From IMG/VR virus record IMGVR_UViG_3300038558_000090, positions 1-21,238 of that record: a stretch of 21,238 bases of DNA; one strand, written 5' to 3'. Source of the stretch: a virus. A model generated the notes under the pieces. The model was not told where the DNA came from. It saw only the letters and a program-made list of their open reading frames with translations, and made no database searches. The position numbers were made by a program, and so were the translations under genes. The first letter of the stretch is position 1; every line of letters starts with the position of its first letter. Below are positions 614 through 19,708 of the stretch, piece by piece.

Positions 614-620
614 ATACACC

Positions 621-650
621 AGTATATATTCGAGTGCGAGAGTCTGTCAA
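621..650 (-). promoter_or_regulatory. Sigma70-type promoter for the endonuclease-like gene
   Basis: On the - strand a perfect TTGACA (645-650) is followed after 18 bp by TATACT (621-626); TATATA at 16 bp is an alternative. Transcription would begin near 614, almost on the GTG at 613. The promoter lies between two genes of the leftward cluster and gives the endonuclease-like gene its own expression. Confidence 0.75.
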
Positions 651-662
651 GTCCCATGCGAA

Positions 663-809
663 TCACTCGAGCACGAATGATTCGATAGCGCGCCTATTAG
701 CCTTGTTCGAACGGCGCAGCATCATCTTCCGGTCCCGCCCGATCCTCACCCTGTTTCGGACCTCACTGCGATGACGCTGATGCTGCCTATCCTGTGCTCT
801 CCACCTCAT
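663..809 (-). CDS. 48-residue highly basic protein
   Basis: A 48-codon frame starts at an ATG preceded by GGAGGT with a 5-nt gap, a strong ribosome site lying inside the end of the upstream gene (overlap 787-809). It starts MRWRAQDRQHQRHRSEV and is extremely rich in Arg, with His and Lys, ending in a short acidic tail (ESFVLE). Such a protein could bind nucleic acid, but no family is recognised. The strong start site, translational coupling and length filling the gap to the next promoter make it a likely real gene despite its size. Confidence 0.65.
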   Translation of the reverse strand: MRWRAQDRQHQRHRSEVRNRVRIGRDRKMMLRRSNKANRRAIESFVLE

Positions 810-1014
810 GTTGCACCTCCTCAGGCTTTGGGCATACCATATGTGCCCACGCCACTAGCCACTGCTTGTCGCTGGCCATGCCATAGATGAATGGGACCAG
901 CCTATCACCTGGGGCAAAGGGCAGCGCACAGTCTATGCAGTAGTCCTCCTCAGGTATTGGGAACAGCAGAGCCGGCCTATCATATGCACCTTTCTGCGCC
1001 ATGCTATCTCTCAT
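787..1014 (-). CDS. Small zinc-finger-like protein (CxxC...HxxC)
   Basis: A 75-residue protein with Cys26-x2-Cys29 (CIDC) and, about 29 residues later, His58-x2-Cys61 (HMVC), with hydrophobic strands between. The pattern fits a single zinc site of the small treble-clef or ribbon type. The ATG at 1014 is chosen over the in-frame ATG at 1002 because GGAGG lies 6 nt upstream of it. The gene overlaps the DUF4326 gene upstream by 11 nt and the 48-residue basic gene downstream by 23 nt. It could bind nucleic acid or protein; nothing points to one. Confidence 0.75.
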   Translation of the reverse strand: MRDSMAQKGAYDRPALLFPIPEEDYCIDCALPFAPGDRLVPFIYGMASDKQWLVAWAHMVCPKPEEVQHEVESTG

Positions 1015-1327
1015 TTCCTGCCTCCAGTAGCTCTACCAGTATATCACCATGGCACGGCAGGGGTTTGCAGTAGCAGCCAAGCCGCTTACCCTTGAGCTCC
1101 TTAAATTTAGCCCGCAACTCTGGCTCAAGGGTTAGCCGCAGAGCAATGTACCCCCTGTACTGCCTAATGGCTTCGGCTCGGCTACACTTAGGACCGATTC
1201 TGTATGGGTTGCCCCACAGCCCACCTCGCCCAATGTACACATCATAGGCTTCTCGGCGCAGGTTCACCACAACCGTTGGGCCTACTGGCTCATCAGACAT
1301 CAGTTGCTCGAAGGTTGGATCAACCAT
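1004..1327 (-). CDS. DUF4326 family protein
   Basis: This 107-residue protein shows the marks of the DUF4326 family: VVNLRRE (20-26) with YDVYIGR just after, WGNPYRIG (38-45), a helical middle, and LGCYCKPLPCHGDIL (83-97) near the C terminus, holding three Cys and one His. The length fits a complete single-domain member. The family is common in phages and bacteria, but its biochemical role is not established; the Cys/His cluster suggests a metal site. The ATG at 1327 is the first possible start after an in-frame TGA; its ribosome site is weak because GGAGG lies 16 nt away. It is the first gene after the promoter region at 1379-1408. Confidence 0.85.
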   Translation of the reverse strand: MVDPTFEQLMSDEPVGPTVVVNLRREAYDVYIGRGGLWGNPYRIGPKCSRAEAIRQYRGYIALRLTLEPELRAKFKELKGKRLGCYCKPLPCHGDILVELLEAGNER

Positions 1328-1378
1328 GACTCAGTCTTTCCTGCCTCCTGCTGGTGATAATAAATTGTCTCTTAAGAC

Positions 1379-1408
1379 ATTATACTTAGTAACACGTAAT
1401 GTATTACG
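1379..1408 (-). promoter_or_regulatory. Promoter -10 box with adjoining palindromic operator-like site
   Basis: On the - strand a perfect TATAAT lies at 1379-1384. No good -35 box is found at 16-18 bp. Instead the -35 position is covered by an inverted repeat, CGTAAT-2 nt-ATTACG (1395-1408). Together these suggest an activator-dependent or repressed promoter for the DUF4326 gene and those after it. The rest of the gap (1328-1453) shows no gene and no clear terminator. Confidence 0.55.
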
Positions 1409-1453
1409 AAGCCATTTTCAGGCTATCTAACTGACATTGTAATAGAAAGGCCA

Positions 1454-2218
1454 TCACCCTTGGTGGAGCGAGATACGCTCAAACTTAAGGTTGTTCCGGT
1501 TGATATGGATGAGCATGGGCTTCAGCTCTTCCTCTGAGTTACGGGTGAGGGGAAAGCTCACCTCTATGTCATCGGAGTGCTCACTCACCCTCCTCACTCC
1601 CACAGCAGTATCACACCAGTTCGGCAGGAAGGAGCTGCCCATCATCTCCTCAGCGCCTCGGTCTATGACGTGGCCTTCTTCATCGGTGCCCGGCTTGCGA
1701 GTGTGAGTTACAATGATGAGAGCAACATTGTACTTGGCAATGAGGCGGTCGAAGTTATCCAGCAGGCCCATCATGTCTCGCGGGTCCGAGATATGGCCAG
1801 TCAAGACTTTGTACAGCGGGTCGATGACCACTATATCGGGCTGCACCATGGCCACAGCCCGGTCCAGGGCTTGAAAGCCCCAATCTCGATCCAGCTTTAG
1901 GTAGTGCTCAGTGATGAACCAGAGGTTGGTGGGGTATAGGTTGTGGCCTGAGGCATATTTGATAACCCGCTTGCGGAACTCTGCTTTAGGAATCTCAAGT
2001 TGCAGCGATAGGAGGGTGCTTTCCTTGGTGTCGAAGCCGAACCACTTCGCCCCGGAAGCAAGGCAGAATGAGGTGTGGAGAGCGGTCATGGACTTCCAAC
2101 TTTTCCACTGGCCGAAGATGACAAGGCGCGTCTGTGGCAGGAGCAGGCCGCCTGATATGATGGTCTCAACATTAGGAGGTTGCCAGTCCATTAACTGCCT
2201 TAGGGATTCTACCTCCAT
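1454..2218 (-). CDS. RecA-fold AAA-type ATPase, RepA/DnaB-like, probable replication protein
   Basis: A 254-residue P-loop ATPase of the RepA/AAA_25 type. The Walker A segment is FGQWKSWKS (35-43, Lys42-Ser43), in which Trp replaces the usual Gly before the lysine. Walker B is DIVVIDPLYKV (128-138, Asp133). The later strand VALIIVTHTRK (165-175) ends in the sensor-like Thr-His-Thr, and an MMGSSFLPNWCDT segment follows, as in hexameric RepA-like helicases and KaiC/RadA-like ATPases. It may unwind or load DNA in phage replication. The ATG at 2218 is chosen because it overlaps the upstream stop as TAATG; a GTG at 2278 lacks a ribosome site. No primase or polymerase is seen nearby. Confidence 0.8.
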   Translation of the reverse strand: MEVESLRQLMDWQPPNVETIISGGLLLPQTRLVIFGQWKSWKSMTALHTSFCLASGAKWFGFDTKESTLLSLQLEIPKAEFRKRVIKYASGHNLYPTNLWFITEHYLKLDRDWGFQALDRAVAMVQPDIVVIDPLYKVLTGHISDPRDMMGLLDNFDRLIAKYNVALIIVTHTRKPGTDEEGHVIDRGAEEMMGSSFLPNWCDTAVGVRRVSEHSDDIEVSFPLTRNSEEELKPMLIHINRNNLKFERISLHQG

Positions 2219-2778
2219 TAGTACACCATGCTGCCCTTGCACTGAGGACAAGTTCTCTTGCTTACCTTCAGCTGGCACTTAGGGCAGTATGGGTTCAGGA
2301 GCCGAGGCACGTAGTAGACCTCGGCATCATGGAAGATTCGCTCTTTGTGGAGGAAGATGGTGGGCCTCAGCCTTCTGACCGCAGCACGGGCGAAGGCCAG
2401 AGTGACCGCGGCGGAATAGAAGGTGAAGCCCTGCTCCCATACCTCTGACTCAGCAGTGATGCTGACCTCCAAGCAGGGGCCGAAGTGCTGGTTCACAACT
2501 CCAGAGCGGCTGGACCATGGGCCCTTGATGGCAACCTGAGTGCCATCTTCAAGGTGCAGGTGGAAGGTCCTGCCTCCAAAACCGCACTCATCACGGGGGC
2601 TGTGGACCATGAAGCTGACGTAGCCATCGAGCTCTGCGTAGAATAGAGTGGAGCCGCCTATATCCTTACTCTTGTAGATGAGGCTGGACATGGGTGGCAA
2701 CTCATCCACCAGGAGCTTGAGCCTAGGCTCATTGTCATACCGATCATTCCACTCGACATCAACTGCTGTTGCCTTCAC
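2218..2778 (-). CDS. Protein with C-terminal zinc ribbon
   Basis: A 186-residue protein of unrecognised family. The body (about 1-160) is beta-rich, with short strands such as FHLHLEDGTQVAIKGPWSSR and a helix FYSAAVTLAFARAAVRRL. The last 22 residues hold CPKC (165-168) and CPQC (177-180), a compact zinc ribbon. The GTG at 2778 is chosen because GAGGAG sits 8 nt before it; the open frame continues farther upstream, but that stretch is low-complexity Ser/Arg/Pro sequence opposite the preceding gene. It overlaps the gene before it by 20 nt and couples to the ATPase gene by TAATG. The position next to the ATPase suggests a DNA-replication or recombination partner; this is inference. Confidence 0.75.
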   Translation of the reverse strand: MKATAVDVEWNDRYDNEPRLKLLVDELPPMSSLIYKSKDIGGSTLFYAELDGYVSFMVHSPRDECGFGGRTFHLHLEDGTQVAIKGPWSSRSGVVNQHFGPCLEVSITAESEVWEQGFTFYSAAVTLAFARAAVRRLRPTIFLHKERIFHDAEVYYVPRLLNPYCPKCQLKVSKRTCPQCKGSMVY

Positions 2779-3070
2779 TCTGCACTCTCCTCGCTTCGAG
2801 TTTCTCAATGATTCGGCGCAAGGCATTGTCCGGTGAGTTGTCACCCGGGCCATTATAGGCAAGCTCGGTGATTTCCTGCTCCTCGGACTCATCGTCAAGC
2901 CTGCCATAGATGGCGACCTCACCAGTGGTTAGAACCTCGGCTGAGAAGTGCATGCCCTCAGCCCGCCTCACCCACTCCACTCCGACCTCGGCATAGTTGG
3001 GCACGGGCCTGCCATCTGGCCTCAGGTACTGGGTGACCTCAACCTCGCTGTCCAGCTTCGGAGTCCTCAC
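2759..3070 (-). CDS. Hypothetical 103-residue acidic protein
   Basis: A 103-residue acidic protein, not recognised. It has a beta-rich N-terminal half (VEVTQYLRPDGRPVPNY, HFSAEVLTTGEVAIYGRL), an acidic turn (DDESEEQEITELAY) and a C-terminal helix (ALRRIIEKLEARR). The GTG start at 3070 is supported by GGAGGT 5 nt upstream. It overlaps the HTH gene by 32 nt and the zinc-ribbon gene by 20 nt. Position in the operon just before the ATPase region suggests an early or replication-related role, but nothing in the sequence proves it. Confidence 0.7.
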   Translation of the reverse strand: MRTPKLDSEVEVTQYLRPDGRPVPNYAEVGVEWVRRAEGMHFSAEVLTTGEVAIYGRLDDESEEQEITELAYNGPGDNSPDNALRRIIEKLEARRVQSEGNSS

Positions 3071-3383
3071 TGTCCACCTCCATGACTATGCCTAACCTCT
3101 TCCTCCACCTGCAGGCAGTGGAGTAGTTGATCCCAAACCTTCTCTGGATGTGGCGAAGGCTGCCATCAGTGAGCATCTCCTCGATGGACAGCCTGTAGCG
3201 AGACTCTAGGGCTATCATCGCCCACGTCTTCTTCACCTTCTTGATGGGTGGAAGCCGACGATGGCGACCCAGCTTCGACTGCTGGCTTACTCCGCGCTTC
3301 TCCAGAATGCGCCTTCGGACATGGGCGAAACGATAGCCAGCTCTTGGCTTGCGCCTGGGCTGGTACTTATTTGTAAAGCGCAT
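3039..3383 (-). CDS. Helix-turn-helix DNA-binding protein
   Basis: The 114-residue protein starts with a very basic segment (NKYQPRRKPRAGYRF, then more Arg/Lys to about residue 52). A helix (WAMIALESRYRLSIEEML) follows, then a helix-turn-helix at about 76-98: LRHIQRRFGINYSTACRWRKR, where GINYSTACRW matches the turn and recognition helix of transposase-like and terminase-like HTH units. The tail is acidic. Likely it binds DNA as an early regulator or replication accessory. The ATG at 3383 overlaps the preceding gene's end by 17 nt. No catalytic residues are seen, so a transposase is unlikely. Confidence 0.75.
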   Translation of the reverse strand: MRFTNKYQPRRKPRAGYRFAHVRRRILEKRGVSQQSKLGRHRRLPPIKKVKKTWAMIALESRYRLSIEEMLTDGSLRHIQRRFGINYSTACRWRKRLGIVMEVDSEDSEAGQRG

Positions 3384-3531
3384 TCGCCACTACACTCCTG
3401 AGCACAACCTCACGCCGGCCATCCTCATACTGGAGGGTGACCCAGGTGTTGTGGCCCACCAGCTCCACAGCCACAATCTTCACCAAGGCACCTTGGAAGT
3501 AGAGGCGCCGGCCCACCCTGATTTCACTCAT
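3367..3531 (-). CDS. 54-residue beta-barrel-like protein
   Basis: Starting at the ATG at 3531, the protein has 54 residues: MSEIRVGRRLYFQG, VKIVAVELVG, WVTLQYEDG, then a short helix VVLRSVVANALYK. The alternating strand pattern resembles a small SH3-like or OB-like barrel. This start is preferred to one at 3600 because AGGGAG lies 9 nt upstream and the 23 residues before it read as low-complexity Cys/Ser sequence opposite the preceding gene. It overlaps the zinc-ribbon gene by 8 nt and the HTH gene by 17 nt. No family is recognised. Confidence 0.6.
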   Translation of the reverse strand: MSEIRVGRRLYFQGALVKIVAVELVGHNTWVTLQYEDGRREVVLRSVVANALYK

Positions 3532-3793
3532 ACAGCTCATCTCCCTCGAACAGCAGGCCGCAGAGCAGGCACACATAGGACTCCTCGTAGGCGAAGCCAT
3601 AAGGGTGTGAGCCGTAGATGGTCTCGCTGCTACCGCACCCTGGGCAGTCTACGAAGCTGAGCCCCTGTGGGTTTGGCTTATGACCCCGGAGCTCAAGGTA
3701 ATAGTATCGCTCAAGCCCAAGCTTCTTGAGCCTTGCATACTCTGCTCTGAGCTCCTCAGTGCTGGCCTCATGCTCAATGGAGTCCGATTGCAT
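3524..3793 (-). CDS. Zinc-ribbon protein, possibly frameshifted from 3858
   Basis: From the ATG at 3793 this encodes 89 residues: a charged helix (EHEASTEELRAEYARLKKLG), then a ribbon with Cys50-x2-Cys53 (CPGC) and Cys75-x2-Cys78 (CLLC), ending in an acidic tail. The ATG is poorly placed, with the nearest GGAGGT 12 nt away, and the codons before it in the same frame look non-coding. In another frame just upstream lies a second, convincing ribbon (see 3649-3858). A single -1 shift after the CLQCN stretch would join both into one 114-residue double-ribbon protein. So this may be the second half of one gene, or an independently started overlapping gene. Confidence 0.65.
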   Translation of the reverse strand: MQSDSIEHEASTEELRAEYARLKKLGLERYYYLELRGHKPNPQGLSFVDCPGCGSSETIYGSHPYGFAYEESYVCLLCGLLFEGDELYE

Positions 3794-3858
3794 TGCAGGC
3801 AATTCACCTCCCCGCCCTGGAAGTACAGGACCTGGCCGCCACAAAACTCACAGCGCAT
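3649..3858 (-). CDS. N-terminal zinc ribbon reading frame overlapping 3524-3793
   Basis: The ATG at 3858 overlaps the preceding stop as TGATG. It opens a typical phage zinc ribbon: MRCEFCGGQVLYF then EVNCLQCNR, with Cys3, Cys6, Cys20 and Cys23. After about residue 25 the frame becomes a Ser/Arg/Gly tail with no recognisable structure, exactly where the overlapping frame becomes convincingly protein-like. So the first 25 codons look real and the remaining 44 may be a shadow. Either the protein is a short ribbon with an odd tail, or a -1 frameshift (biological or an assembly error) continues it into the 3524-3793 frame. Confidence 0.5.
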   Translation of the reverse strand: MRCEFCGGQVLYFQGGEVNCLQCNRTPLSMRPALRSSEQSMQGSRSLGLSDTITLSSGVISQTHRGSAS

Positions 3859-4160
3859 CAACTCTCACGCTCCCCAAGGTGCATCCTGATGCGGTTGCGG
3901 AGCTCCACTCCATCCACCACTTCACCCTCCTTGAGTCCTGCCTCTTTGCTGGCATCATGCCCGAGGAGCAGCAGCAAGGCATCCTTGGCTGTCATGTCGT
4001 TGATACTTGCTGTGGTGAAGCCGGCCTTCGCCGATGGCATCAGTCTGTCCACTATGGGGGCTATGGCGGCGACTGCCTCCTTCAACTCCTCAAGGAGCTG
4101 GTCCTCTGGCACATCGGTGCCTATTATGGTGGTGATCCTAGCGACTAGGGGGTTGCTCAT
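3858..4160 (-). CDS. Hypothetical helical protein, 100 residues
   Basis: A 100-residue, mostly helical protein: an N-terminal helix (PLVARITTIIG), an acidic helix (EDQLLEELKEAVAAIAPIVDRLM), a leucine-rich segment (AKDALLLLLGHD) and a C-terminal charged helix (ELRNRIRMHLGERES). There is no cysteine cluster, unlike most neighbours, and no signal or membrane segment. The start overlaps the previous gene by 4 nt (ATGA) and the end couples to the ribbon gene by TGATG. Not recognised. Confidence 0.7.
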   Translation of the reverse strand: MSNPLVARITTIIGTDVPEDQLLEELKEAVAAIAPIVDRLMPSAKAGFTTASINDMTAKDALLLLLGHDASKEAGLKEGEVVDGVELRNRIRMHLGERES

Positions 4161-4426
4161 AGCCGACCCTTCCTTCTGAAGTACTCGTACAGTTGGTCCC
4201 CCATGCTGTCCGGCTTCTCACTCCGACCATAGACTTTCACGATTGCACCATGAACTACCTCCACATCTATCATGGCACCATTGTCCCTGGCCCACAGCAG
4301 GTGATCCAGCAACTTTCGACGGCCGGGGCCAGTATGCAGGTATGCACCATGGATGGTGCCGGCACACCTGATGTGGCATGAGCCGGCTAGCTCAACAGTC
4401 TTGACCCTGATGGTTTCAAGGCACAT
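4157..4426 (-). CDS. Hypothetical 89-residue protein
   Basis: An 89-residue protein: an N-terminal strand pair (MCLETIRVKTVELAG), then CHIRC and a run of His and Gly (GTIHGAYLHTG), a helix (RRKLLDHLLWARDNGA), two strands (MIDVEVVHGAIVKVYGR) and a short basic tail. The Cys/His residues could make a metal site, but the pattern matches no family known to me. It starts 2 nt after the upstream stop, with no good Shine-Dalgarno sequence, so it probably relies on translational coupling. It overlaps the next gene by 4 nt. Confidence 0.65.
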   Translation of the reverse strand: MCLETIRVKTVELAGSCHIRCAGTIHGAYLHTGPGRRKLLDHLLWARDNGAMIDVEVVHGAIVKVYGRSEKPDSMGDQLYEYFRRKGRL

Positions 4427-4428
4427 GG

Positions 4429-4686
4429 CTAATCACGGTACACCAGCCTTTCTCCTGGCTCATCGCCATCCTGAGTTGGGAAGTATGGGAAGAAGGCTAG
4501 CGCTTCCCGCTCTGACAGCTTGCATCCATATGCCCGGGTCCACTCCACTGTCAGCTGCTCAGTGGCGGGGTCTGGCAGTGCTCCTATGTAGGCGGCCCAG
4601 TCATCGGCTGCACCTTCGACCGCTACGATGGCCATGCCCATGCCATTGCTATTCCAGTAGCGGTGCTGCATATCACCGTACATCAT
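4429..4686 (-). CDS. Hypothetical phage protein, 85 residues
   Basis: An 85-residue protein beginning MMYGDMQHRYWNSNGMGMA. A strand (AIVAVEG) leads to a tryptophan-containing helix (ADDWAAYIGALPD), then EWTRAYGCKLS, a helix and FFPYFP, ending in RLVYRD. The motif DWAAYIG with a following KLSE...A..FFP pattern resembles small conserved phage proteins of unknown function; this is a memory-based resemblance, not a database match. The ATG at 4686 overlaps the upstream stop (TAATG), with GGAG 4 nt upstream. Confidence 0.7.
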   Translation of the reverse strand: MMYGDMQHRYWNSNGMGMAIVAVEGAADDWAAYIGALPDPATEQLTVEWTRAYGCKLSEREALAFFPYFPTQDGDEPGERLVYRD

Positions 4687-4922
4687 TACTCTCCTCTAGG
4701 CACCTGCCACAGGCCTGCCTGCAGGACTGCTCCATCTTCCTCCTTGGCGGCCTTGTAGCCATCGCGGTAACCCTGGATGTAGAGGCGCCGGAGCAGTGAT
4801 GTTATGCCAAAGCTGGTCATCACCATCCCCGATGCCATGCGGGCGAGGGTCTCTCTTCGCTCGTCAACTACCCCTGTCACCTCAGAGTACTCGGGCTCAC
4901 CTGGCCCTTCATTTGGCATCAT
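4686..4922 (-). CDS. Hypothetical protein, 78 residues
   Basis: A 78-residue protein with an acidic, proline-containing start (MMPNEGPGEPEYSEV), a helix (DERRETLARMASGMVMTS) and an amphipathic segment (FGITSLLRRLYIQGYRDGYKAAKEED). The central stretch is only mildly hydrophobic, so a membrane segment is unlikely. The start at 4922 follows GGAGG closely and overlaps the upstream stop by 4 nt. No family is recognised. Confidence 0.65.
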   Translation of the reverse strand: MMPNEGPGEPEYSEVTGVVDERRETLARMASGMVMTSFGITSLLRRLYIQGYRDGYKAAKEEDGAVLQAGLWQVPRGE

Positions 4923-5119
4923 TCACCCCTCCTAGCGACTATGACATTGACTGGCTTGCCGGCTCGCCTGAGCTTATGCTCCTCATGGAGCTGGCGCTGA
5001 TTTAGGCGATGTAGGCTGCTGGCCCTTCGCCTCCTACCGGCATGAGTTATCAGCCCTACTGGCTTCGGCCTCCTTGGCTTGGGCTCGGGCTCAACCCTCA
5101 CGTATGGATGCTTACCCAT
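4919..5119 (-). CDS. Basic 66-residue protein
   Basis: A 66-residue protein dominated by Arg, Lys, His and Pro: MGKHPYVRVEPEPKPRRPKPVG, then AGRRRRASSLHRLNQRQLHEE. Its charge suggests nucleic-acid binding or a disordered linker-like protein. It overlaps the 54-residue zinc-ribbon gene by 8 nt and the following gene by 4 nt; GGAGG lies 12 nt upstream of its ATG. No family is recognised. Confidence 0.6.
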   Translation of the reverse strand: MGKHPYVRVEPEPKPRRPKPVGLITHAGRRRRASSLHRLNQRQLHEEHKLRRAGKPVNVIVARRGE

Positions 5120-5276
5120 GCCTCATGGCAGCCTCCTCGGCCTGCACCTCATCAACCTTCTTGGGCTTGAAGGCGTAGCTCTTGCACTTGGGATTCCGGC
5201 ACTCCCTGATGCGGCGGGGCCTGCCGGCAACCCGGTACCACCTCATGCCACAGTCGTAGCACCTCTTAGCCACCAT
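5112..5276 (-). CDS. 54-residue zinc-ribbon protein
   Basis: A 54-codon frame from an ATG with GGAGGT 5 nt upstream. The protein starts MVAKRCYDCGMRWYRVAG and has Cys6-x2-Cys9 and Cys26-x4-Cys31 (CRNPKC), flanked by many Arg and Lys, with a helical Glu/Ala tail. This is a basic single-zinc ribbon likely to bind nucleic acid. It overlaps the upstream gene by 11 nt and the downstream gene by 8 nt, filling what would otherwise be a gap in a continuous operon. Confidence 0.75.
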   Translation of the reverse strand: MVAKRCYDCGMRWYRVAGRPRRIRECRNPKCKSYAFKPKKVDEVQAEEAAMRHG

Positions 5277-5451
5277 ATGGCACCTCCCTCTTGACCTTCC
5301 TCCACAACCTGCGGTCTGGACAGCGCCAATGCCTCACCCCCGAGTTGGTCTCAACGGCGCAACACCACCCCACCAGCAAGCCACACTGGTAGCATGGGGT
5401 TGGGCTCATCTCGTCGGCGCCCCTCGGTTCGCCGCACGCCGCGCACAGCAT
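5266..5451 (-). CDS. Cysteine-rich double zinc-site protein
   Basis: A 61-residue protein with eight candidate ligands: Cys3-x2-Cys6, Cys20-x2-Cys23, Cys30-Cys31, His41 and Cys44. The spacing could fit two zinc ions, in a RING-like cross-brace or two successive ribbons, but it matches no named family exactly. A basic tail (RRLWRKVKREV) follows. The ATG at 5451 overlaps the previous stop as TAATG. It is one of three adjacent Cys-rich genes here. Confidence 0.7.
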   Translation of the reverse strand: MLCAACGEPRGADEMSPTPCYQCGLLVGWCCAVETNSGVRHWRCPDRRLWRKVKREVPYGG

Positions 5452-5687
5452 TAGATAGTCTCCACTGTGAGCCTGTCCAGCTTGTCCAGGGCGTTAGTCA
5501 GCCAATGAATGGCCTGCACTAGCCTCCACACCCTGGCGCACTCCTGAGAGCAGCACGGATTGTCTGGGTCATAGCCCCACCTGTGGGCCTCACCCAGCAG
5601 CGCGTTGCAGACGGCGCAGCGCTCCATTGTTTTCAACCCCATGCCATGCTGGTACGCCTGGTTCTGCTCCATGTATCTCTCTACCAT
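5451..5687 (-). CDS. Small zinc-binding protein with CCxxxC motif
   Basis: A 78-residue protein with Cys24-x2-Cys27 (CAVC) and CCSQEC (45-50), a pattern seen in small MYM/TRASH-like zinc-binding modules where CSxxC closes the site. A helical tail follows (RVWRLVQAIHWLTNALDKLDRL). The ATG at 5687 is chosen over a GTG at 5693 because GAGG is 5 nt upstream of the former and too close to the latter. It overlaps the membrane peptide gene by 7 nt. A role in protein or nucleic-acid binding is inferred. Confidence 0.7.
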   Translation of the reverse strand: MVERYMEQNQAYQHGMGLKTMERCAVCNALLGEAHRWGYDPDNPCCSQECARVWRLVQAIHWLTNALDKLDRLTVETI

Positions 5688-5791
5688 GGCCACCTCGCCA
5701 ATATCCAGACTATGAGCAGGGCGATGAGCATCCAGCTCGCGATGGTTGACCAGTCTCGCTTCATGCTTCTGCTCCCGGACTCAGGCACCAT
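5681..5791 (-). CDS. 36-residue single-pass membrane peptide, first gene of leftward operon
   Basis: A 36-codon frame: a polar N terminus (MVPESGSRSMKRDWST) and one hydrophobic helix (IASWMLIALLIVWILA) ending RWPW. The Lys/Arg before the helix and lack of a cleavage site suggest a bound membrane peptide with its N terminus inside. AGAGGTGG ends 4 nt before the ATG. A longer in-frame start at 5827 (48 residues) has its AGG too close. As the first gene after the strongest leftward promoter it would be made early and abundantly. Roles such as superinfection exclusion or membrane disturbance are possible but unproven. Confidence 0.65.
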   Translation of the reverse strand: MVPESGSRSMKRDWSTIASWMLIALLIVWILARWPW

Positions 5792-5862
5792 GATACCACC
5801 TCTCAGGGGATGGGGCGCCCTCGCCATCCTCAGCTCTGCCACTCCTGATTGTTCACATGCTC

Positions 5863-5891
5863 AGTATATCACAAGGCGTTGCATCTGTCAA
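5863..5891 (-). promoter_or_regulatory. Strong leftward sigma70-type promoter
   Basis: On the - strand a perfect TTGACA (5886-5891) and TATACT (5863-5868) are separated by exactly 17 bp. Transcription would begin near 5856, giving a leader of about 65 nt before the membrane peptide gene. The closeness to consensus suggests strong early expression by the host RNA polymerase of the whole leftward cluster. Confidence 0.85.
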
Positions 5892-5914
5892 CAGAGCATA
5901 TGTTCTACTTGACA
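5886..5914. promoter_or_regulatory. Imperfect palindrome overlapping the leftward -35 box
   Basis: TGTCAA at 5886-5891 is mirrored by TTGACA at 5909-5914, around the centre CATATG, with AGA and TCT also paired and one extra base in the right arm. The left arm is the -35 box of the leftward promoter. This may be an operator where a dimeric regulator would block RNA polymerase. The right-hand TTGACA has no good -10 box at 16-18 bp. Confidence 0.5.
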
Positions 5915-5947
5915 TAATGCGATCCTGGTCCGCTCGTCTCCTGACCA

Positions 5948-5962
5948 TTAGTTTCATGCTAA
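5948..5962. promoter_or_regulatory. TTAGC-N5-GCTAA site upstream of the divergent promoters
   Basis: The 15-mer TTAGTTTCATGCTAA matches 9 of the 10 specified positions of the dyad TTAGC-N5-GCTAA found on the other side of the 6126 gene. A weaker half-matching copy (TTAGCACGACACAAA) follows at 5980-5994. Both lie between the two divergent promoters, a natural operator position. Confidence 0.5.
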
Positions 5963-6009
5963 TTTCCCCTGCTTTTCCCTTAGCACGACACAAAAGGTTC
6001 GTATGCTGC

Positions 6010-6039
6010 TTGACATGCCTCGGCACCTCGTGTTATCAT
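6010..6039 (+). promoter_or_regulatory. Rightward promoter of the 6126 gene
   Basis: A perfect TTGACA (6010-6015) and TATCAT (6034-6039, five of six matches) are 18 bp apart. Transcription would start near 6046, giving a leader of about 80 nt that contains the interlocking inverted repeats at 6056-6102. Confidence 0.7.
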
Positions 6040-6055
6040 TGCATCATGGACAAGG

Positions 6056-6102
6056 GGCGCGCACCCGCGAATTGCAGGAGTGCCTGCGCGCCTCAGCAAT
6101 TC
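6056..6102 (+). promoter_or_regulatory. Structured 5' leader: two interlocking inverted repeats
   Basis: Two perfect arm pairs occur in the order A-B-A'-B': GGCGCGCA (6056-6063) with TGCGCGCC (6085-6092), and GAATTGC (6069-6075) with GCAATTC (6096-6102). In RNA they would form either two mutually exclusive hairpins or an H-type pseudoknot. They lie between the predicted transcript start and the ribosome site GGAGGTG (6114-6120). Translational control is a reasonable inference; no known riboswitch class is recognised. Confidence 0.5.
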
Positions 6103-6125
6103 TGGCACAGAATGGAGGTGCTACA

Positions 6126-6668
6126 ATGACCCAGGAGACGAAGAGTGCGCAGGCTGAAGCTCCGGCTCCGAGCCTGGAGGACCTGAAGGCTCAGCTGGCG
6201 AAGGCTTCGGCTGCGGGCGACATCGACGAGATTCTTTCGCTTGCGAAGCAAGTGGAGGGCCAGCGTGTCGCAGCCGCAAAGGCAGAGCACGAGAAGCTCG
6301 TGAAGGCGCGGACTGCACTCGGGCTCAGGATAATCGAGGTGGCGAAGCCCCACCTCGCACCATTCGAATCCGATGTGGTTCGGCTGGGGGGCGTGCTGCG
6401 GCTGATGTGGAGTCCAACGGAAAGCCTATTCGACGCCGCCGTTACGAGCAAGGCGGAGCCGAAGCCTCCGGGCGCGCGTGTTGCGGCTGCGAAGGGCTCA
6501 GCCGCGGACCGCTACGGGATGCCCCTGGGCGCGATCTACGAGAGGTTCGCGAACGCGGAAGAGCGTGCGGCCCATGATGGCGCGGCCACGAACAGTGAGC
6601 GCTGGAACATCAAGACGCGGGTGATGAAGCGCGCAGTGTCCGAGGGGCTCCTGCACGAAGTGAGCTAG
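6126..6668 (+). CDS. Isolated 180-residue protein, coiled-coil N terminus and basic C-terminal domain
   Basis: The ATG at 6126 follows GGAGGT by 6 nt; an upstream in-frame ATG lies before the promoter and is ignored. The N-terminal part (about 14-75) is a charged Ala/Lys/Glu-rich helix suited to coiled-coil pairing. A middle domain (80-105) and a Pro/Ala-rich linker follow, and then a C-terminal module (125-180) that includes RWNIKTRVMKRAVSEGLL, reminiscent of a small winged-helix or nucleoid-protein-like DNA-binding end. It uses more GCG and GCC-type codons than the neighbouring genes. It stands alone between two opposing operons with its own promoter, structured leader and terminator. A regulator or acquired cargo (moron-like) gene is possible; the family is not recognised. 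Confidence 0.75.
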   Translation: MTQETKSAQAEAPAPSLEDLKAQLAKASAAGDIDEILSLAKQVEGQRVAAAKAEHEKLVKARTALGLRIIEVAKPHLAPFESDVVRLGGVLRLMWSPTESLFDAAVTSKAEPKPPGARVAAAKGSAADRYGMPLGAIYERFANAEERAAHDGAATNSERWNIKTRVMKRAVSEGLLHEVS

Positions 6669-6690
6669 CCCGCATATCCCGGGACCTGAC

Positions 6691-6728
6691 ATATCCCCTC
6701 CGTGGCACTCGGAGGGGATATTGTTATG
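6691..6728 (+). terminator. Rho-independent-like terminator after the 6126 gene
   Basis: A perfect 12-bp stem, ATATCCCCTCCG (6691-6702) with CGGAGGGGATAT (6710-6721), closes a 7-nt loop 22 nt after the stop codon. The following TTGTTATG is only moderately T-rich, so it ranks as a strong hairpin with a weak T tract. Confidence 0.75.
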
Positions 6729-6740
6729 CCTAGCTCACCG

Positions 6741-6831
6741 TTAGCGCAATTCCAATTGTTAGCACCAGGCTAACAATCATCCAGGGCGCAGGGGGTCCTT
6801 AGCATGATGCCAACAATTCGCGGGAGGCTAA
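6741..6831. repeat. Cluster of four 15-bp dyads, TTAGC-N5-GCTAA
   Basis: Copies occur at 6741-6755 (TTAGC gcaat TCCAA), 6759-6773 (TTAGC accag GCTAA, perfect, extending to 9-bp arms ATTGTTAGC/GCTAACAAT at 6755-6777), 6799-6813 (TTAGC atgat GCCAA, also followed by CAAT) and 6817-6831 (TTCGC gggag GCTAA). They form two pairs, each with an 18-bp repeat distance. The dyad symmetry suggests binding sites for a dimeric protein, in an operator array, a replication origin (iterons) or a partition or attachment site. Confidence 0.55.
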
Positions 6832-6878
6832 ATGTTCGCATGAGCACTTTACGGGCCTCCCGCCATGCTCCCCTTTTA
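6820..6878 (+). terminator. Second hairpin set, possible terminator
   Basis: GCGGGAGGC (6820-6828) pairs perfectly with GCCTCCCGC (6855-6863) across 26 nt. An alternative fold pairs GAGCA (6842-6846) with TGCTC (6866-6870) around CGGG-CCT-CCCG. CCCCTTTT follows on the + strand, so a back-up terminator for rightward transcription is plausible. The two folds exclude each other. Confidence 0.4.
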
Positions 6879-6893
6879 TGATTGATTGCCCTT

Positions 6894-7133
6894 TTAAGGT
6901 TCGCTCTCAGAAGTTACTCGATGTGGGAACTCCGCCTTGAAGGCCATGGTTGGGTCAGTATCCAGCGAGGTATGCCCATAAAATATGCGGGGTACAAAGT
7001 GCCTGGTGGCAGAGCAGTACTTGCACCTCCCTTTGTTGCCTGCATCAAGGAGCCAGTGATGCGCGCCATTGGGGGAGTGTGGGCAACGCCAGGACTTGCC
7101 ATGCAGGTATTCTTTCCACTCCTTGCTATCCAA
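6894..7133 (-). CDS. Zinc-binding phage protein (CPH...HHW...CKYC)
   Basis: From a TTG at 7133 the protein has 79 residues. Its core is WRCPHSPNGAHHW...GRCKYC with Cys17, His25 or His26, Cys37 and Cys40, followed by TRHF. The arrangement C...GAHHW...CxxC.. R.F resembles a widespread type of small phage protein of unknown role. The TTG start gives an 8-nt overlap with the previous gene and has GAGGTGG a few nt upstream; a longer frame up to 7178 reads as a shadow of the preceding gene. It is the last gene of this operon. Confidence 0.65.
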   Translation of the reverse strand: MDSKEWKEYLHGKSWRCPHSPNGAHHWLLDAGNKGRCKYCSATRHFVPRIFYGHTSLDTDPTMAFKAEFPHRVTSESEP

Positions 7134-7551
7134 TGGTCCACCTCTTCGGCACAGGCCCAATGGCTGCCACAGCAACAATTATCTTCTGCCTGCGCACCTC
7201 CAGGGTCAGCACTTTATTGATGTTCCCAGCGACCGCGGCCTTCCTGATCTGGTGGACGACCACGGCATAGTGTCGCACCAGCCTGGACCTGCAGGCCCTA
7301 ACTTCAGGCTCCAGCTCCATTGGAGGTCTGCCAGTTGACCTCTTAGGCACAAATGGAGTGTCATCCAAGTGTGTTCTAGCCTGTTCCACCCAGCATTCAG
7401 GGAAGTGCCACCTGAACACCTTGGGATACTTCAGCCTTTCACCCTTTATGGCCCAGAGCTTGCCCACCACCACTGGGGTTCCGGCGGTGATGGGTTCAGG
7501 ACAGTGGGCACACTTGGACTGCCGCCTGCACCATGTCACCCAGATGTCCAT
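7126..7551 (-). CDS. Zinc-finger-like protein, 141 residues
   Basis: A 141-residue protein with an N-terminal metal-site region: Cys14-x2-Cys17 (CAHC), strands GTPVVVGKLWAIKG, then WHFPECW with His49 and Cys53, matching a single C2HC zinc site like the PARP-finger-like domains in small phage proteins. The rest (60-141) is basic and helical, with an SRLVRHYAVVVHQIRKAA helix and a VRRQKIIVAVAAIG end. GGAGGT precedes the ATG by 3 nt and the start overlaps the YkgJ gene by 16 nt. DNA or RNA binding is likely but unproven. Confidence 0.7.
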   Translation of the reverse strand: MDIWVTWCRRQSKCAHCPEPITAGTPVVVGKLWAIKGERLKYPKVFRWHFPECWVEQARTHLDDTPFVPKRSTGRPPMELEPEVRACRSRLVRHYAVVVHQIRKAAVAGNINKVLTLEVRRQKIIVAVAAIGPVPKRWTIG

Positions 7552-7898
7552 GGCACCTCCATCAGGGTCGTATCATTGATGCTCATCCAACCCTCAACTA
7601 TCGCCCTTTCAGCGGGGAAGTCCATGATGGCAGCCTCAGGGAAGTGGGGGCAGGGCAGTTGCTTTGTCACTCCGAACATCCGGCATACCCACGGCCTAAC
7701 CTCATAGATGAGGCATTTTCCTTCACCCAGGAATGGGCAGGCTAGGAAGTCACCATCTCTGGTCCTGATGTGGTGAGCAACCACATACTCCCTTATTAGG
7801 GCCACCTCTCTGTCAGTGGCAGAGGCGGGACCACAGCACTCCCCGCAGTTATTGCACTGTGGCATGGCTGGCATGTAAGGATATAGGATGTTACTCAT
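7536..7898 (-). CDS. YkgJ-family Cys-cluster protein (putative Zn/Fe-chelating)
   Basis: This 120-residue protein matches the YkgJ family (putative zinc- or iron-chelating domain). It has CNNCGECC (15-22), then CPFL (from Cys54), CLIYEVRPWVCR (Cys62, Cys72) and Cys83, eight conserved cysteines in the family's usual order; the RP.VC segment is especially typical. Family members occur in bacteria and phages and are thought to bind metal, with no settled reaction. The ATG at 7898 overlaps the upstream stop by 4 nt. Its length fits one complete domain. Confidence 0.85.
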   Translation of the reverse strand: MSNILYPYMPAMPQCNNCGECCGPASATDREVALIREYVVAHHIRTRDGDFLACPFLGEGKCLIYEVRPWVCRMFGVTKQLPCPHFPEAAIMDFPAERAIVEGWMSINDTTLMEVPWTSG

Positions 7899-8203
7899 GG
7901 CTCCTCACCCTGGAAGCACCAGACCCACAGCTTCTCTGCTCGCTCCACTATCTCCATGTCACGGAATGGAGGTGGCAGTTCTGCACCATCTGCATTAGTG
8001 GGCCGTGACCCCCTTTCACCATCGAGGATAAGCAGGGCGCTGTGAGGTCCCAGCTTCACACACTGGATACGGGGCAACTTTCTGGTGACTCGGTTGTGGT
8101 CTAGACGAGCAGCTTCGGACCGGCTGAAGCCCACAATCCTGAGTGCTTTGTTCAGGTTAAAGGCTAGACCCCTGGGCCAAAGTATGTGGTAGTAAACCCT
8201 CAT
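7895..8203 (-). CDS. Hypothetical 102-residue protein, first gene of second leftward operon
   Basis: A 102-residue protein of unrecognised family. It begins with a hydrophobic/aromatic strand (MRVYYHILWPRGLAF), then a helix with NLNKALRIVGFSRSEAARL, a basic stretch (RVTRKLPRIQCVKLG), a strand (SALLILDGERG), a Pro/Asp/Glu segment and a helix ending in VWCFQGEEP. AGGAGG lies 4 nt before the ATG, an excellent site. The predicted transcript start (about 8213) leaves a leader of only about 10 nt, barely holding the ribosome site. Confidence 0.75.
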   Translation of the reverse strand: MRVYYHILWPRGLAFNLNKALRIVGFSRSEAARLDHNRVTRKLPRIQCVKLGPHSALLILDGERGSRPTNADGAELPPPFRDMEIVERAEKLWVWCFQGEEP

Positions 8204-8249: not shown

Positions 8250-8305
8250 GCAGTATCCGAGTTGTTGACATAAGGCTAAACATCGTAATAAGGAATGATC
8301 GCTGC

Positions 8306-8321: not shown

Positions 8322-8350
8322 TTGACAAGAACGATGCTCTGTGATATACT
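8322..8350 (+). promoter_or_regulatory. Strong rightward promoter driving the virion genes
   Basis: TTGACA (8322-8327) and TATACT (8345-8350) are 17 bp apart, close to the sigma70 consensus. The expected start of transcription, 7 bp past the -10 box, is position 8357, which is the first base of the small-terminase ATG. Confidence 0.85.
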
Positions 8351-8356
8351 AAGTAT

Positions 8357-8899
8357 ATGCAAGACAGAAGCATGACCGTGGTTGACCCAGGGGATGAGCA
8401 GGCAATCGCCGAATCGGTGATGCCTGCTTTCTATGATGACAGCAAGAAGTCCACATACCTCTCGTACCGGGCCACCGGTTTCACCATCAGGGAGTCAGTA
8501 GAGTTCGTAGGCGTCACCGAGCGCACCCTGAGGAACTGGCGCAGGTATGATCCTGAGTTTGCCCGATGGGACCGAGAGGCATTGGGCGAGCTAAGACAGA
8601 AGCTCGGCGACCGTTACCTAGAGATTGAGTTCCGCCGGAACTACAGGCTCATACTCCAGAAGGACTACGATGTCATCAAGAAGTCGGTGGAGGATAAGGA
8701 GCCTCTCACCTACCAGGAGAGCCAGTACTTGCTCAAGGCCCGGAGCCACTACACTCCTCAGCAACTTGAGACCATCGAGCGGATTCTGAGTGGCAGCGAG
8801 GGTGGCGGAGAGGAGTTTGACTGGACATCATTTGTGCTGAGCCTCAGAGGTCGTGGGGGCGAGGTCCACATTGCAGCAAGGAGGGGTGAGATTGAGTGA
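8357..8899 (+). CDS. terS: Terminase small subunit (TerS)
   Basis: A 180-residue protein. A helix-turn-helix at about 37-63 (SYRATGFTIRESVEFVGVTE then RTLRNWRR) is the usual DNA-binding part of TerS, which recognises phage DNA for packaging. The middle (75-135) is helical and charged, suited to ring formation, and a short basic tail follows. Large terminase lies downstream, with five small genes and a structural-type gene between. No Shine-Dalgarno sequence precedes the ATG at 8357, and the promoter predicts a transcript starting there, so it is probably translated from a leaderless mRNA; an ATG at 8372 also lacks a ribosome site. No ATPase motifs, as expected for TerS. Confidence 0.8.
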   Translation: MQDRSMTVVDPGDEQAIAESVMPAFYDDSKKSTYLSYRATGFTIRESVEFVGVTERTLRNWRRYDPEFARWDREALGELRQKLGDRYLEIEFRRNYRLILQKDYDVIKKSVEDKEPLTYQESQYLLKARSHYTPQQLETIERILSGSEGGGEEFDWTSFVLSLRGRGGEVHIAARRGEIE

Positions 8900-10183: not shown

Positions 10184-11740
10184 GTGGCCACAGTTGACCT
10201 GGTAGCCGAGGCTGTCCAGAATCCGCTCTTCTTCATACCTCGCTTCATGAAGATCGAGGATAAGGAGCGGAATGAGGTGCCATTTGTGCTCAATGCGGTG
10301 CAAGAGGATATCGTCAAGCACCTCATGGCTGGGGAGCGCAGGCTCAACGTCTTGAAAGCGGGACAGCTCGGGGTAACTTCAATCGTCATGGCTTACTTCT
10401 TGTGGGATACCATCCTGACCCCGGGCACAGCCTCCGTGGTCATTGCCCACGAGGAGTTCATCACTCAGCGCCTACTGCATAAGTCCCAGCTATTCTATGA
10501 CTCCATACCTCCTCAGTTCAAGCCCGAGATGCACCACAGTTCTGCCTACGAGAAGACTTTTCCGGCTATCAATGGCACCATGTACACAGGCTCCGCTCGT
10601 GCCTACATCTTTGGTCGGGGTGAAACTCTCCACAATGTCTTGGCAGATGAGTACGCCTTCTGGCCCGACCCGGAGCGCATCATGGTTCCACTGCAGCAGC
10701 GGGTGCCTATCACCGGACTCATTATGAAGGTTAGCACCCCCAATGGCGAGGATAATGCCTTCTGCCTGGACTGGCGGGCAAGTAAGCGTGGGGAGCTCAT
10801 TGGCACCGCCATCTACAAGAATCTGGTATATCCGTGGTGGCTGTGTCCTGAGTACCGAATACCCCGCGGCAGTGTCTTTGCCCTGGAGCGGGATAAGGGT
10901 GAGCTGGACTTCACCCTTGAAGAGGAAAAGCTCATCGCCATTCACCACCTCGATGAGGACCAGATTCGCTGGCGTCGCCGCAAGATTGAGGAAATGGAGC
11001 AGCTCAGGGCCACAGGCGAGACGGCCAAGTACTTCTGGCAGGAGTATGTTGAGGATGAGGAGACTTGCTTCCTAGCCACGGGCGATATGGTCTATGATGC
11101 TGAGACCTTGAAGATGCACGCCGCCAACGCCTACAAAGCCCCTCATACTATTGAGAACTTCAAGGTCTGGTACCCACCTGAGGAAGGTGTGCAGTATGCG
11201 GTGGTCATAGACCCCAGCCAGGCCAAGATTACCAAGACGGCCATCACGGTCTGGAAGTTTGAGCAGCCTGAGACCGGCCCTGAGAAGCCTATTCACTGCG
11301 CAACCTTCGCAGGGCTCGTAGGTCCAGAGCAGACTGCAATCAAGGCCGAGCGCATTGCAAGGCTCTATAACACAGCGCTGATAGTCATTGAGGCTAACAG
11401 CCACGGCCTGGCTGTGGTGGTTTGCCTCAAGAACTATCCTAAGCTCTACTACCGCCGCGACATAGCCTCTGGCAGGGAAGGTATGCAGATTGGGTGGCTT
11501 ACCACACCTAAAACCAAGCCTTACATGATCCAGCAACTCCAGCAAACCCTCCCGTTCATGGTTACTCACGACCTTGACCTCATTGGTGAAATGCGGGGCA
11601 TGAGGTTTCAAGGTGACAAGGTGATCTCCTTGGGCGACGATGACATTCACGATACAGCGGCCATAGCCATGGCCACCCACAGGCCACATAGGGGCAAGCG
11701 AGGATATGCCGGGCAGGCTGGCTGGAATCAGGGGTGGTGA
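10184..11740 (+). CDS. terL: Terminase large subunit (TerL), packaging ATPase and nuclease
   Basis: A 518-residue TerL that pumps DNA into the procapsid and cuts it. The ATPase half has the variant Walker A KAGQLGVTS (58-66) and the Walker B stretch NVLADEYAF (151-159, Asp155-Glu156). The RNase H-like nuclease half shows three acidic sites: VVIDPSQ (Asp343), VIEANSHG (Glu403) and DDDIHDTAAIA (Asp490). The N-terminal VPFVLNAVQ matches the adenine-binding Q motif region. Length fits the family. The GTG at 10184 has only a weak AGG site, so translation may be coupled; a later ATG would cut the conserved N terminus. Confidence 0.92.
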   Translation: MATVDLVAEAVQNPLFFIPRFMKIEDKERNEVPFVLNAVQEDIVKHLMAGERRLNVLKAGQLGVTSIVMAYFLWDTILTPGTASVVIAHEEFITQRLLHKSQLFYDSIPPQFKPEMHHSSAYEKTFPAINGTMYTGSARAYIFGRGETLHNVLADEYAFWPDPERIMVPLQQRVPITGLIMKVSTPNGEDNAFCLDWRASKRGELIGTAIYKNLVYPWWLCPEYRIPRGSVFALERDKGELDFTLEEEKLIAIHHLDEDQIRWRRRKIEEMEQLRATGETAKYFWQEYVEDEETCFLATGDMVYDAETLKMHAANAYKAPHTIENFKVWYPPEEGVQYAVVIDPSQAKITKTAITVWKFEQPETGPEKPIHCATFAGLVGPEQTAIKAERIARLYNTALIVIEANSHGLAVVVCLKNYPKLYYRRDIASGREGMQIGWLTTPKTKPYMIQQLQQTLPFMVTHDLDLIGEMRGMRFQGDKVISLGDDDIHDTAAIAMATHRPHRGKRGYAGQAGWNQGW

Positions 11741-11741
11741 T

Positions 11742-13403
11742 ATGCCATACACGGCGGCTTCTAAGGTCAGGGGCGACTGCGCGGACTTGAGAAAGTACTG
11801 GGACACCAGGGGTGCCAAGTTCCCCGACTGGTACAAGATCCTCATGCTCGAGGATAAGCTCAAGCAGGTTGGTATGGAGAGCTTCACCAGCAATGATCCC
11901 AGGACCTTCTACAACCTTGCCCTCCACCTGCTAACTCCTAAGGTCATCCCACACCATGTCAGAGGTGCTGTGGGCCGGGCCGTAGAAGCGGGCTTGGCCT
12001 CCATTAACAACTTTTTGGCCGAGCAGTGGGAGCGGTTGGACATTATCAGCAGGCGCCGAGGTCACCAGCGCTGGCTCAGGAGGCTTGTATCGCTGATGCT
12101 GGCCACTGGCTGGTACTCAGTTCTGGCATATGCCACTGAGGATGAGCTGGTGGCAGAAGCCTGGAACCCTGCCGAGGTCTTTCCCGACCTTGGCGACGAG
12201 GAACTAATAGCCTGTGCTCACATCTACAGTATCACCACGAAAGCAGCGGCTCGCAAGGCTGCACTCAGGAACTGGTCATTCAAGCCTAGGCTCCTCACTG
12301 GCAACACCACTGTTTATGATCTCTGGTACGTTGAGGGTGGTGCCGTAAGGAATGTGGTGGTTTTCAACAGCGAGATAGTGAGACCTGACGATGCTACTCC
12401 ATTCCCCACCATTCCCATCCTGGTGTCGCCGGTAGGTGGGCTTCCTGACCAGGGCACCATCATAGAAGGTGATGACACCTGGAAGGCGCACATTGGTGAA
12501 GCCATCATCGCGGTCAATGAGGGCGTCTACAATAACTACAACCGGCAGATGACCTTCCTCCAGCAACTCTTGAGGGACACGGCGCAACCTCGCTGGTTTG
12601 AGCGCAGCCGGGAGGGCAACATACTGGATGAAGAGAGCATCTTCAAGCGTGGTGCCATCTTCAAGGGCGCTCCCGAGGACTCAGTCGAGTTGCTGCCAGT
12701 TCCGGCTGTGCCAGTGGACATCAGGACCACTATGTTCGACCTGCAGGGCATGATGCAGCGGGGCTCCCTCCCATATGCCCTCTATGGCAATGTCCAGCAG
12801 GAGATGGCTAGCTACCTTATGAGCCAGATAGCGAGCGCAGCCACCCAAATCCTGGGTGACTACCGGGATGCGGCTCAGGCCGTGCTTGCCGGAGTGGACA
12901 AGCTCTGGCTCACTCACATGCGGGATAACAGGTATGCACCATATGGCTTCGCCCTACCAGATGTGCTGCCCGCTGCTCCAAGAGAGATTGAGGTTGAGGT
13001 CGGAGTTGAGGTTAGCATCCCTGGTGACCTTATCCAGCGGGTGAGTACAGCCAGGATGCTCAATCCTCAGTTCCAGCTCAGTCCTCAGACCATCATGGAC
13101 CTGCTGTTCCCCGAGGTGCAGGACCCAATGACCGAGGAGGCGAGGGTTAATGCCAGTCGCGCTCTTCAGCATCCTACGGCAATAGCCATCTCCACGATTC
13201 AGGCTTGGCGCTCAGAGGCGCAGCGGCTGAGGGATGCCAAGGATACTGCATCGGCAGACCTCTTTGAGAAGGCAGCGGCGAAGCTTGAGGCCATGCTCGG
13301 GGCTGAGGCGCAGCAAGCGCGCCTGCCACAGCGTCCAGAGGGAGCTGGACCTCCAGCCGGAGAGATTATTCCACGCGAAGTTCAGGGTTACGGAGCACAA
13401 TAA
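11742..13403 (+). CDS. Portal protein
   Basis: A 553-residue protein directly after TerL, at the usual place for the portal, the dodecameric ring through which DNA enters and leaves. Features typical of portals include YDLWYVEGG, FNSEIV, FPTIPILVSPVGGLPDQG, then IGEAIIAVNEGVYNNYNRQM, a mixed region, and QRGSLPYALYGNVQQEMASY, then a long helical stem and a Gln/Ala/Pro-rich tail. The ATG at 11742 is taken, with GGGGTGG 4 nt upstream and the TerL stop just before. Identification rests on position, size and these patterns. Confidence 0.85.
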   Translation: MPYTAASKVRGDCADLRKYWDTRGAKFPDWYKILMLEDKLKQVGMESFTSNDPRTFYNLALHLLTPKVIPHHVRGAVGRAVEAGLASINNFLAEQWERLDIISRRRGHQRWLRRLVSLMLATGWYSVLAYATEDELVAEAWNPAEVFPDLGDEELIACAHIYSITTKAAARKAALRNWSFKPRLLTGNTTVYDLWYVEGGAVRNVVVFNSEIVRPDDATPFPTIPILVSPVGGLPDQGTIIEGDDTWKAHIGEAIIAVNEGVYNNYNRQMTFLQQLLRDTAQPRWFERSREGNILDEESIFKRGAIFKGAPEDSVELLPVPAVPVDIRTTMFDLQGMMQRGSLPYALYGNVQQEMASYLMSQIASAATQILGDYRDAAQAVLAGVDKLWLTHMRDNRYAPYGFALPDVLPAAPREIEVEVGVEVSIPGDLIQRVSTARMLNPQFQLSPQTIMDLLFPEVQDPMTEEARVNASRALQHPTAIAISTIQAWRSEAQRLRDAKDTASADLFEKAAAKLEAMLGAEAQQARLPQRPEGAGPPAGEIIPREVQGYGAQ

Positions 13404-19630: not shown

Positions 19631-19638
19631 TTCATATC

Positions 19639-19659
19639 GGAGGTATCAGTATGCGATGA
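19639..19659 (+). other. Ribosome site followed by a two-codon ORF
   Basis: GGAGG (19639-19643) stands 7 nt before an ATG whose frame is ATG CGA TGA (Met-Arg-stop). The ribosome site is strong, yet the frame codes for nothing. It may be a relic from before the internal promoter (19661-19689) became placed here, or a minimal stalling frame. Confidence 0.35.
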
Positions 19660-19660
19660 G

Positions 19661-19689
19661 TTGACAACCGATTAGCTCTGTGTTACTAT
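19661..19689 (+). promoter_or_regulatory. Internal promoter before scaffold and capsid genes
   Basis: A perfect TTGACA (19661-19666) and TACTAT (19684-19689, four of six) are 17 bp apart, in a gap between the giant gene and the scaffold-like gene. A weak TTAGC-type dyad (19672-19686) overlaps the spacer and -10 box. Extra transcription of the most abundant virion proteins from here is a reasonable inference. Confidence 0.6.
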
Positions 19690-19708
19690 TTAACCGGAGG
19701 CAAAGAGA

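Follow-up and report, generated by a model that had tools for sequence, protein, structure and literature searches.

Organization of the locus

The DNA analyzed here, called the window, is the linear viral record IMGVR_UViG_3300038558_000090 (positions 1–21,238; 21,238 bases), a fragment of a phage genome. A leftward early operon occupies positions 119–5842 and includes an ORF that appears LAGLIDADG-like from its sequence. The rightward gene at 6126 stands isolated and is followed by four small leftward genes (6894–8203). A rightward block encodes a small-terminase-like protein, the large terminase, a 565-aa portal-position protein, a 2075-aa protein, the scaffold-position gene at 19709 and the major capsid protein (Table 1). 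The N-terminal lysozyme-like domain of the 2075-aa ORF (13403–19630) matches internal virion protein families (phrog_342), and this ORF, followed by the scaffold-position gene and the capsid gene, hints at a podovirus-like virion. A tRNA search of the window found none, and thus gave no hint of an attachment site.

A promoter scan indicates that host-type sigma-70 promoters are in use throughout the window. For two promoters, the transcript start is predicted on the start codon itself or only a few bases from it (8345–8357, TATACTAAGTATATG; 626–615, TATACTGGTGTATG), which suggests that leaderless mRNAs are made from them.

The product of the isolated gene is predicted to consist of an N-terminal coiled coil, a beta hairpin and a confidently modeled C-terminal helical domain. 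Family searches with this protein returned no match, including to Rep, Par, initiator and HTH families, and fold searches returned none that was convincing, the best (Z 5.2) covering coiled-coil segments only. With this gene running to 6668 and facing a leftward gene at 6894, the gap to its right is convergent, as the sequence-only reading had described it. This gap has a GC content of 0.54, and so is not AT-rich, and no promoter is predicted within it.

Table 1. Coordinates of genes, promoters and sequence elements in the window. Scores are matched positions over fixed positions; distances from transcript starts are promoter-based estimates.
Feature	Positions	Strand	Score	Remarks
Weak dyad TTAGCcttgtTCGAA	697..711		8/10	~−90 from start predicted for promoter 650–621 (−)
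Strong sigma-70-type promoter	650–621	−	11/12
AAA/helicase-like ATPase	1454–2278			Leftward early operon; Pfam AAA_25
Helix-turn-helix protein, candidate regulator	3039..3383	−		Early operon; G001 homologue with 38% identity over 84 aa
Sigma-70-type promoter, leftward early operon	5863..5891	−	11/12	TTGACA-17-TATACT
Family-wide element TTATGTCAA	5909..5917	−		~−57 from leftward promoter start
Dyad TTAGTttcatGCTAA	5948..5962		9/10	~−91 from predicted 6126-gene transcript start
Dyad TTAGCacgacACAAA	5980..5994		8/10	~−59 from predicted 6126-gene transcript start
Sigma-70-type promoter, 6126 gene	6010..6039	+	11/12	TTGACA-18-TATCAT
Isolated gene, 180 aa	6126..6668	+		Homologues in L006, L022, L024
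Terminator-like hairpin of 6126 gene	6691..6721	+		12-bp stem
Dyad TTAGCgcaatTCCAA	6741..6755		8/10
Perfect dyad TTAGCaccagGCTAA	6759..6773		10/10	9-bp arms, 6755–6777
Dyad TTAGCatgatGCCAA	6799..6813		9/10
Dyad TTCGCgggagGCTAA	6817..6831		9/10	Overlaps one arm of GC-rich inverted repeat 6820–6828/6855–6863
Strong sigma-70-type promoter	8249	−	11/12
Strong sigma-70-type promoter	8322	+	11/12
Promoter, scaffold-position gene 19709	19661..19689	+	10/12	TTGACA-17-TACTAT
Dyad TTAGCtctgtGTTAC	19672..19686		8/10	In −35/−10 spacer, 3 bp into −10
Dyad TTAACcggagGCAAA	19690..19704		8/10	18 bp after 19672; overlaps Shine-Dalgarno

Dyad sites and their concentration in non-coding DNA

Six 15-mers matching the dyad TTAGC-N5-GCTAA had been picked out by eye in the two gaps that flank the isolated gene. 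All six were recovered at the same positions and scores, with one perfect copy, three at 9/10 and two at 8/10, and the 18-bp repeat distance was confirmed for the pairs 6741/6759 and 6799/6817. Successive sites are separated by 18, 40 and 18 bp in the right-hand gap and by 32 bp on the left. With its extended 9-bp arms, the perfect copy reads ATTGTTAGC-ACCAG-GCTAACAAT. The match at 6817 is the least secure among the better ones, since it shares letters with an inverted repeat that may mark the end of the leftward operon.

Six further 8/10 matches occur in the window, four of them non-coding (697, 8265, 19672 and 19690) and two coding (16669 and 20713). Weaker matches had been reported near two promoters. 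At the 19661 promoter this holds for the pair 19672/19690, where the first dyad runs into the −10 element (19684–19689) and the second follows directly after it. The match at 8265, by the 8322 promoter, overlaps another conserved element (TTGACATAA); it is better explained as a TTATGTCAA element, and was dropped as a TTAGC dyad. The dyads at 5980, 6741, 19672 and 19690 each reach just 8/10.

The window contains 12 matches at 8/10 or better, compared with 5.98 ± 2.83 in dinucleotide shuffles (12 reached in 4 of 100). This total is only mildly high, and it is the location of the matches that is unusual: ten of the 12 are non-coding, though non-coding DNA makes up only about 6.4% of the window. 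Matches as frequent in coding DNA, which the sequence-only reading had named as grounds for giving up the motif, are not observed; just two of the 12 lie there.

When the motif is held fixed, the counts in the two gaps together are reached in none of 5000 shuffles. When motif and spacer are chosen anew after each shuffle, the observed counts are reached in 1 of 114, such that the after-the-fact choice of motif leaves the two gaps (5.9 and 6.7 kb) with a significance of only ∼0.01. We also ranked 2240 dyads with arms of equal base composition and spacers of 2 to 8 for their concentration in non-coding DNA. TTAGC-N5-GCTAA ranks first with a score of 15; the second (score 9) is GCTAA-N3-TTAGC, the inside-out form of the same sites, and the next unrelated dyad scores 7.

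With the motif derived at 5.9 and 6.7 kb, the remaining gaps constitute a held-out test. They hold 4 matches, while no shuffle gave more than 3 (n=3000), and the 3 that are left without 8265 are matched or exceeded by 16 of 3000. Two matches in the gap 19631–19708 have a frequency of 1.5×10−4 among shuffles, and a pair with an 18-bp step in this gap is found in 0 of 20,000. The held-out test is thus passed, including the 19672/19690 pair on the scaffold-position promoter. The extended palindrome TTGTTAGC-N5-GCTAACAA is present in 9 viral contigs, none with a comparable cluster. For 16 fixed bases in a collection of an estimated tens of billions of bases, chance alone would give about this number.

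A different element at the same positions in relatives

Searches with the large terminase identified three relatives, L005 (89% identity), L006 (67%) and L007 (43%), and the neighbor gene at 7126 used as query identified L022, L023, L024 and L025. Three of these loci (L006, L022 and L024) share the order of divergent promoter region, 6126 homologue, terminator, convergent gap, and homologues of the 6894 and 7126 genes. Identity to the 6126 product is 37–39% in L006 and 26–27% in L022 and L024. The resulting family (window 6126–6668; L006 562–1071; L022 11067–11630; L024 11415–11981) has no recognized relative outside itself, and each member stands alone, pointing rightward amid leftward genes, and has a promoter and a terminator to itself. 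Scans of bacterial genomes with the terminase and the 6126 family returned nothing, and hence indicate neither a host nor a prophage.

No close relative covering 5.9–6.9 kb or 19.6 kb was found. L005 begins at window position 8305, and so lies outside the sites there; the giant ORF's C-terminal part yielded no related locus, hence there is no close-relative view of the 19672/19690 pair. TTAGC dyads are absent from the related loci, with no clusters in any relative locus scanned. Lack of conservation in related phages had been put forward as evidence against the sites, and this lack is found for the motif itself; it does not extend to the positions, at which a different element resides.

This element, TTATGT(C/A)AA, occurs in 17 copies in G001, the 42-kb record behind L022 and the most complete relative, where 1.26 would be expected, and most copies are non-coding. 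Arrays with a 13-bp tandem step lie upstream of the 6126 homologue (11498–11545) and before an early gene (3781–3830). One copy (12303) lies in the convergent gap after the terminator of the 6126 homologue, and two (28026 and 28046) are at the scaffold-gene promoter, the latter inside the −35/−10 spacer. Three places are common to both elements: the DNA preceding the 6126 gene, the convergent gap behind it, and the promoter of the scaffold gene, including the spacer position. Non-coding copies in G001 are polar: those of the leftward region are on the + strand and those of the rightward region on the − strand, apart from 28046.

The window itself carries two TTATGTCAA copies (5909 and 8265), a number that 0 of 200 shuffles reach, and each lies about 57 bp upstream of a leftward promoter's predicted start; L006 carries three. 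Since the window retains two of these elements, the TTAGC dyads are no simple replacement of that system. TTATGT(C/A)AA may constitute a stoperator-like system of its own. Its sites (window 5909–5917 and 8265–8273; L006 361, 418 and 2350; L024 9392, 11349 and 12113–12147; L022 8437, 9019, 9034, 11002, 11768–11882, 17892 and 19483–19532) are often 50–66 bp upstream of predicted transcription starts. TTATGTCAA resembles half of the Deinococcus DdrO motif, which we note as a lead only.

Other repeats were seen in these loci. The convergent gap of L006 (1130–1434) holds a direct-repeat array, which includes GATGGCTCGCTTCC-like units and the 21-bp tandem TCGCTTGCTTCCCAACA, as well as a palindrome with perfect 11-bp arms, AATTGATAGGGCACCCTATCAATT; the gap contains 37 direct near-repeat pairs versus 2 expected. 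A LexA-like box (GAAC-N4-GTTC), AGAGCATATGTTCT, is identical in the window (5893–5906) and in L006 (2332–2345), in both cases beside early leftward promoters; beside another promoter, L006 carries an exact GAACTAACGTTC LexA-like box (341–352). The loose LexA-like pattern is at chance level across the whole window.

Proposed roles of the dyads

We consider it fairly probable that a single sequence-specific transcription regulator of the phage, acting as a dimer, has the TTAGC-N5-GCTAA dyads as its operators. The earlier proposal of a looping repressor array around the 6126 gene gains support as far as a regulator array is concerned: the sites are non-coding, several overlie or precede strong sigma-70-type promoters, and another element occupies the same places in a relative. 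We infer that one protein serves all the sites and that it is dimeric, and likewise which protein it is and in which direction it acts. Protein bound to the 19672/19690 pair probably would block transcription from the scaffold-position promoter. The sites at 5948 and 5980, which are separated by 32 bp (about three helical turns), might activate the 6126 gene, or might loop to repress it. Behind the terminator of this gene, protein bound to the 6741–6831 sites could act as a road-block against read-through; alternatively, these sites could form an auxiliary operator that loops to those upstream of the gene.

As to the regulator, the helix-turn-helix protein encoded at 3039–3383 is the best candidate, and the 6126 product might be considered second. 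The former is conserved in its G001 homologue but differs there in the recognition region, and a protein changed in this manner could account for the changed sites. No repressor family match was obtained among the scanned proteins of the window, which is a fragment; likewise, no CI/Cro-type gene was found among them, and the HTH_23-like matches (3039–3383 and 8357–8899) are weak.

Several other explanations for the dyads were weighed. It is unlikely that the convergent-gap cluster is a replication origin or an iteron array for an initiator whose own expression is autoregulated through the upstream sites. The sites do recur within a single gap, next to a conserved gene of unknown function, and the same gap is repetitive in L006. 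However, the gap is not AT-rich, the adjacent 6126 product matches no initiator, Rep or HTH family, and the dyad recurs 13 kb away on the promoter of a structural gene, that in the scaffold position. GC skew was rejected as a sign of an origin, because its sign in the window tracks gene orientation. The iterons proposed in the sequence-only reading are thus not borne out, and the same is true of the partition site that it offered as another candidate, since the neighboring gene has no Par match and no partition gene was found. We also see little prospect that the dyads are sites for a host regulator, captured such that phage promoters respond to the state of the host. Host-type sigma-70 promoters throughout the window and a LexA-like box near the early promoters would suit this explanation, yet the motif is wholly missing from relatives, and four sites in a convergent gap would be unusual for a host operator.

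Formation of RNA hairpins or terminators by the right-hand cluster, where two operons converge, is very unlikely. The region 6660–6900 does fold better than shuffles (z −4.8), a 9-bp stem can form at 6755–6777, and one arm of a GC-rich stem overlaps the 6817 site. Much of this fold, however, comes from the separate terminator hairpin (6691–6721), no T-run follows the 6759 stem, an Rfam search gave no match, and copies of the dyad lie upstream of promoters, outside expected transcripts. Moreover, at five of the six sites one or more pairs between the arms are broken: the copies TTAGC/GCCAA (6799), TTCGC/GCTAA (6817) and TTAGT/GCTAA (5948), together with 6741 and 5980, keep the consensus in the other arm. 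Mismatched copies that lose pairing but retain the consensus in one arm fit recognition of DNA by a protein, and not an RNA hairpin. Similarly improbable is a chance cluster selected by eye. The after-the-fact significance for the two gaps and the mildly high window total leave some room for it, but the held-out gaps, the 18-bp step repeated at 19672/19690 and the first rank among 2240 dyads speak against it.

The operators that we favor can be compared with known systems. In cluster A mycobacteriophages, elongation is halted by repressor bound at sites away from promoters, and the consensus sequences of L5 and Bxb1 are distinct (PMC6550527; PMC9283540); members of one phage group can thus differ in site consensus at repeated genomic sites (PMC6550527). 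Like these stoperators, the TTAGC sites are repeated in promoters and short intergenic gaps, with a consensus that differs between relatives. Cluster A sites, however, are 13 bp long, asymmetric and bound by a monomer, number more than 20 per genome, and have an orientation tied to transcription (PMC6550527; PMC9283540), whereas the window has a 15-bp dyad, about 6–9 sites in 21 kb and no recognized repressor gene. The asymmetric, monomer-bound nature of the 13-bp sites places the TTAGC dyads outside the cluster A stoperator family. TTATGT(C/A)AA is closer to stoperators in its asymmetry, 13-bp tandem step and polarity. Even so, we read some dyads as occupying stoperator-like positions, and by analogy those in the convergent gap may work as stoperators do, through a road-block or looping.

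Lambdoid operators also provide a parallel, in that the TTAGC half-sites are about one helical turn apart and form fixed-step clusters, with one pair over a promoter. Overlap with −35/−10 elements is seen at 19672, whereas the sites at the 6010 promoter are well upstream of the start. Unlike lambdoid operators, the largest TTAGC cluster lies in a convergent gap lacking a predicted promoter, and no CI- or Cro-like gene was found. Plasmid and phage iterons resemble the dyads in being repeated at a regular step near a small conserved gene, but the dyads are not long direct repeats, are not AT-rich, have no recognized initiator gene, and occur also at a late promoter.

Thus, this uncultured phage carries a real operator-like dyad family. 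Its kind is already known, and the interesting part is the positional replacement of the motif. A more tentative and rather doubtful proposal is that we observe a lineage of uncultured tailed phages with stoperator-like control whose site motif, asymmetric TTATGT(C/A)AA in some members versus the symmetric TTAGC dyad in the window, is exchanged between relatives at three shared positions, among them the convergent gap behind the 6126 gene, where the sites would serve as road-blocks. Distributed operator and stoperator control is best known from cluster A mycobacteriophages, and the window derives from a different phage lineage. The conserved, isolated 6126-family gene of unknown function is marked as the center of a control region. 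Repeated intergenic elements that occupy matching positions, with sequences that differ between members, make these phages a tractable case of operator-motif turnover.
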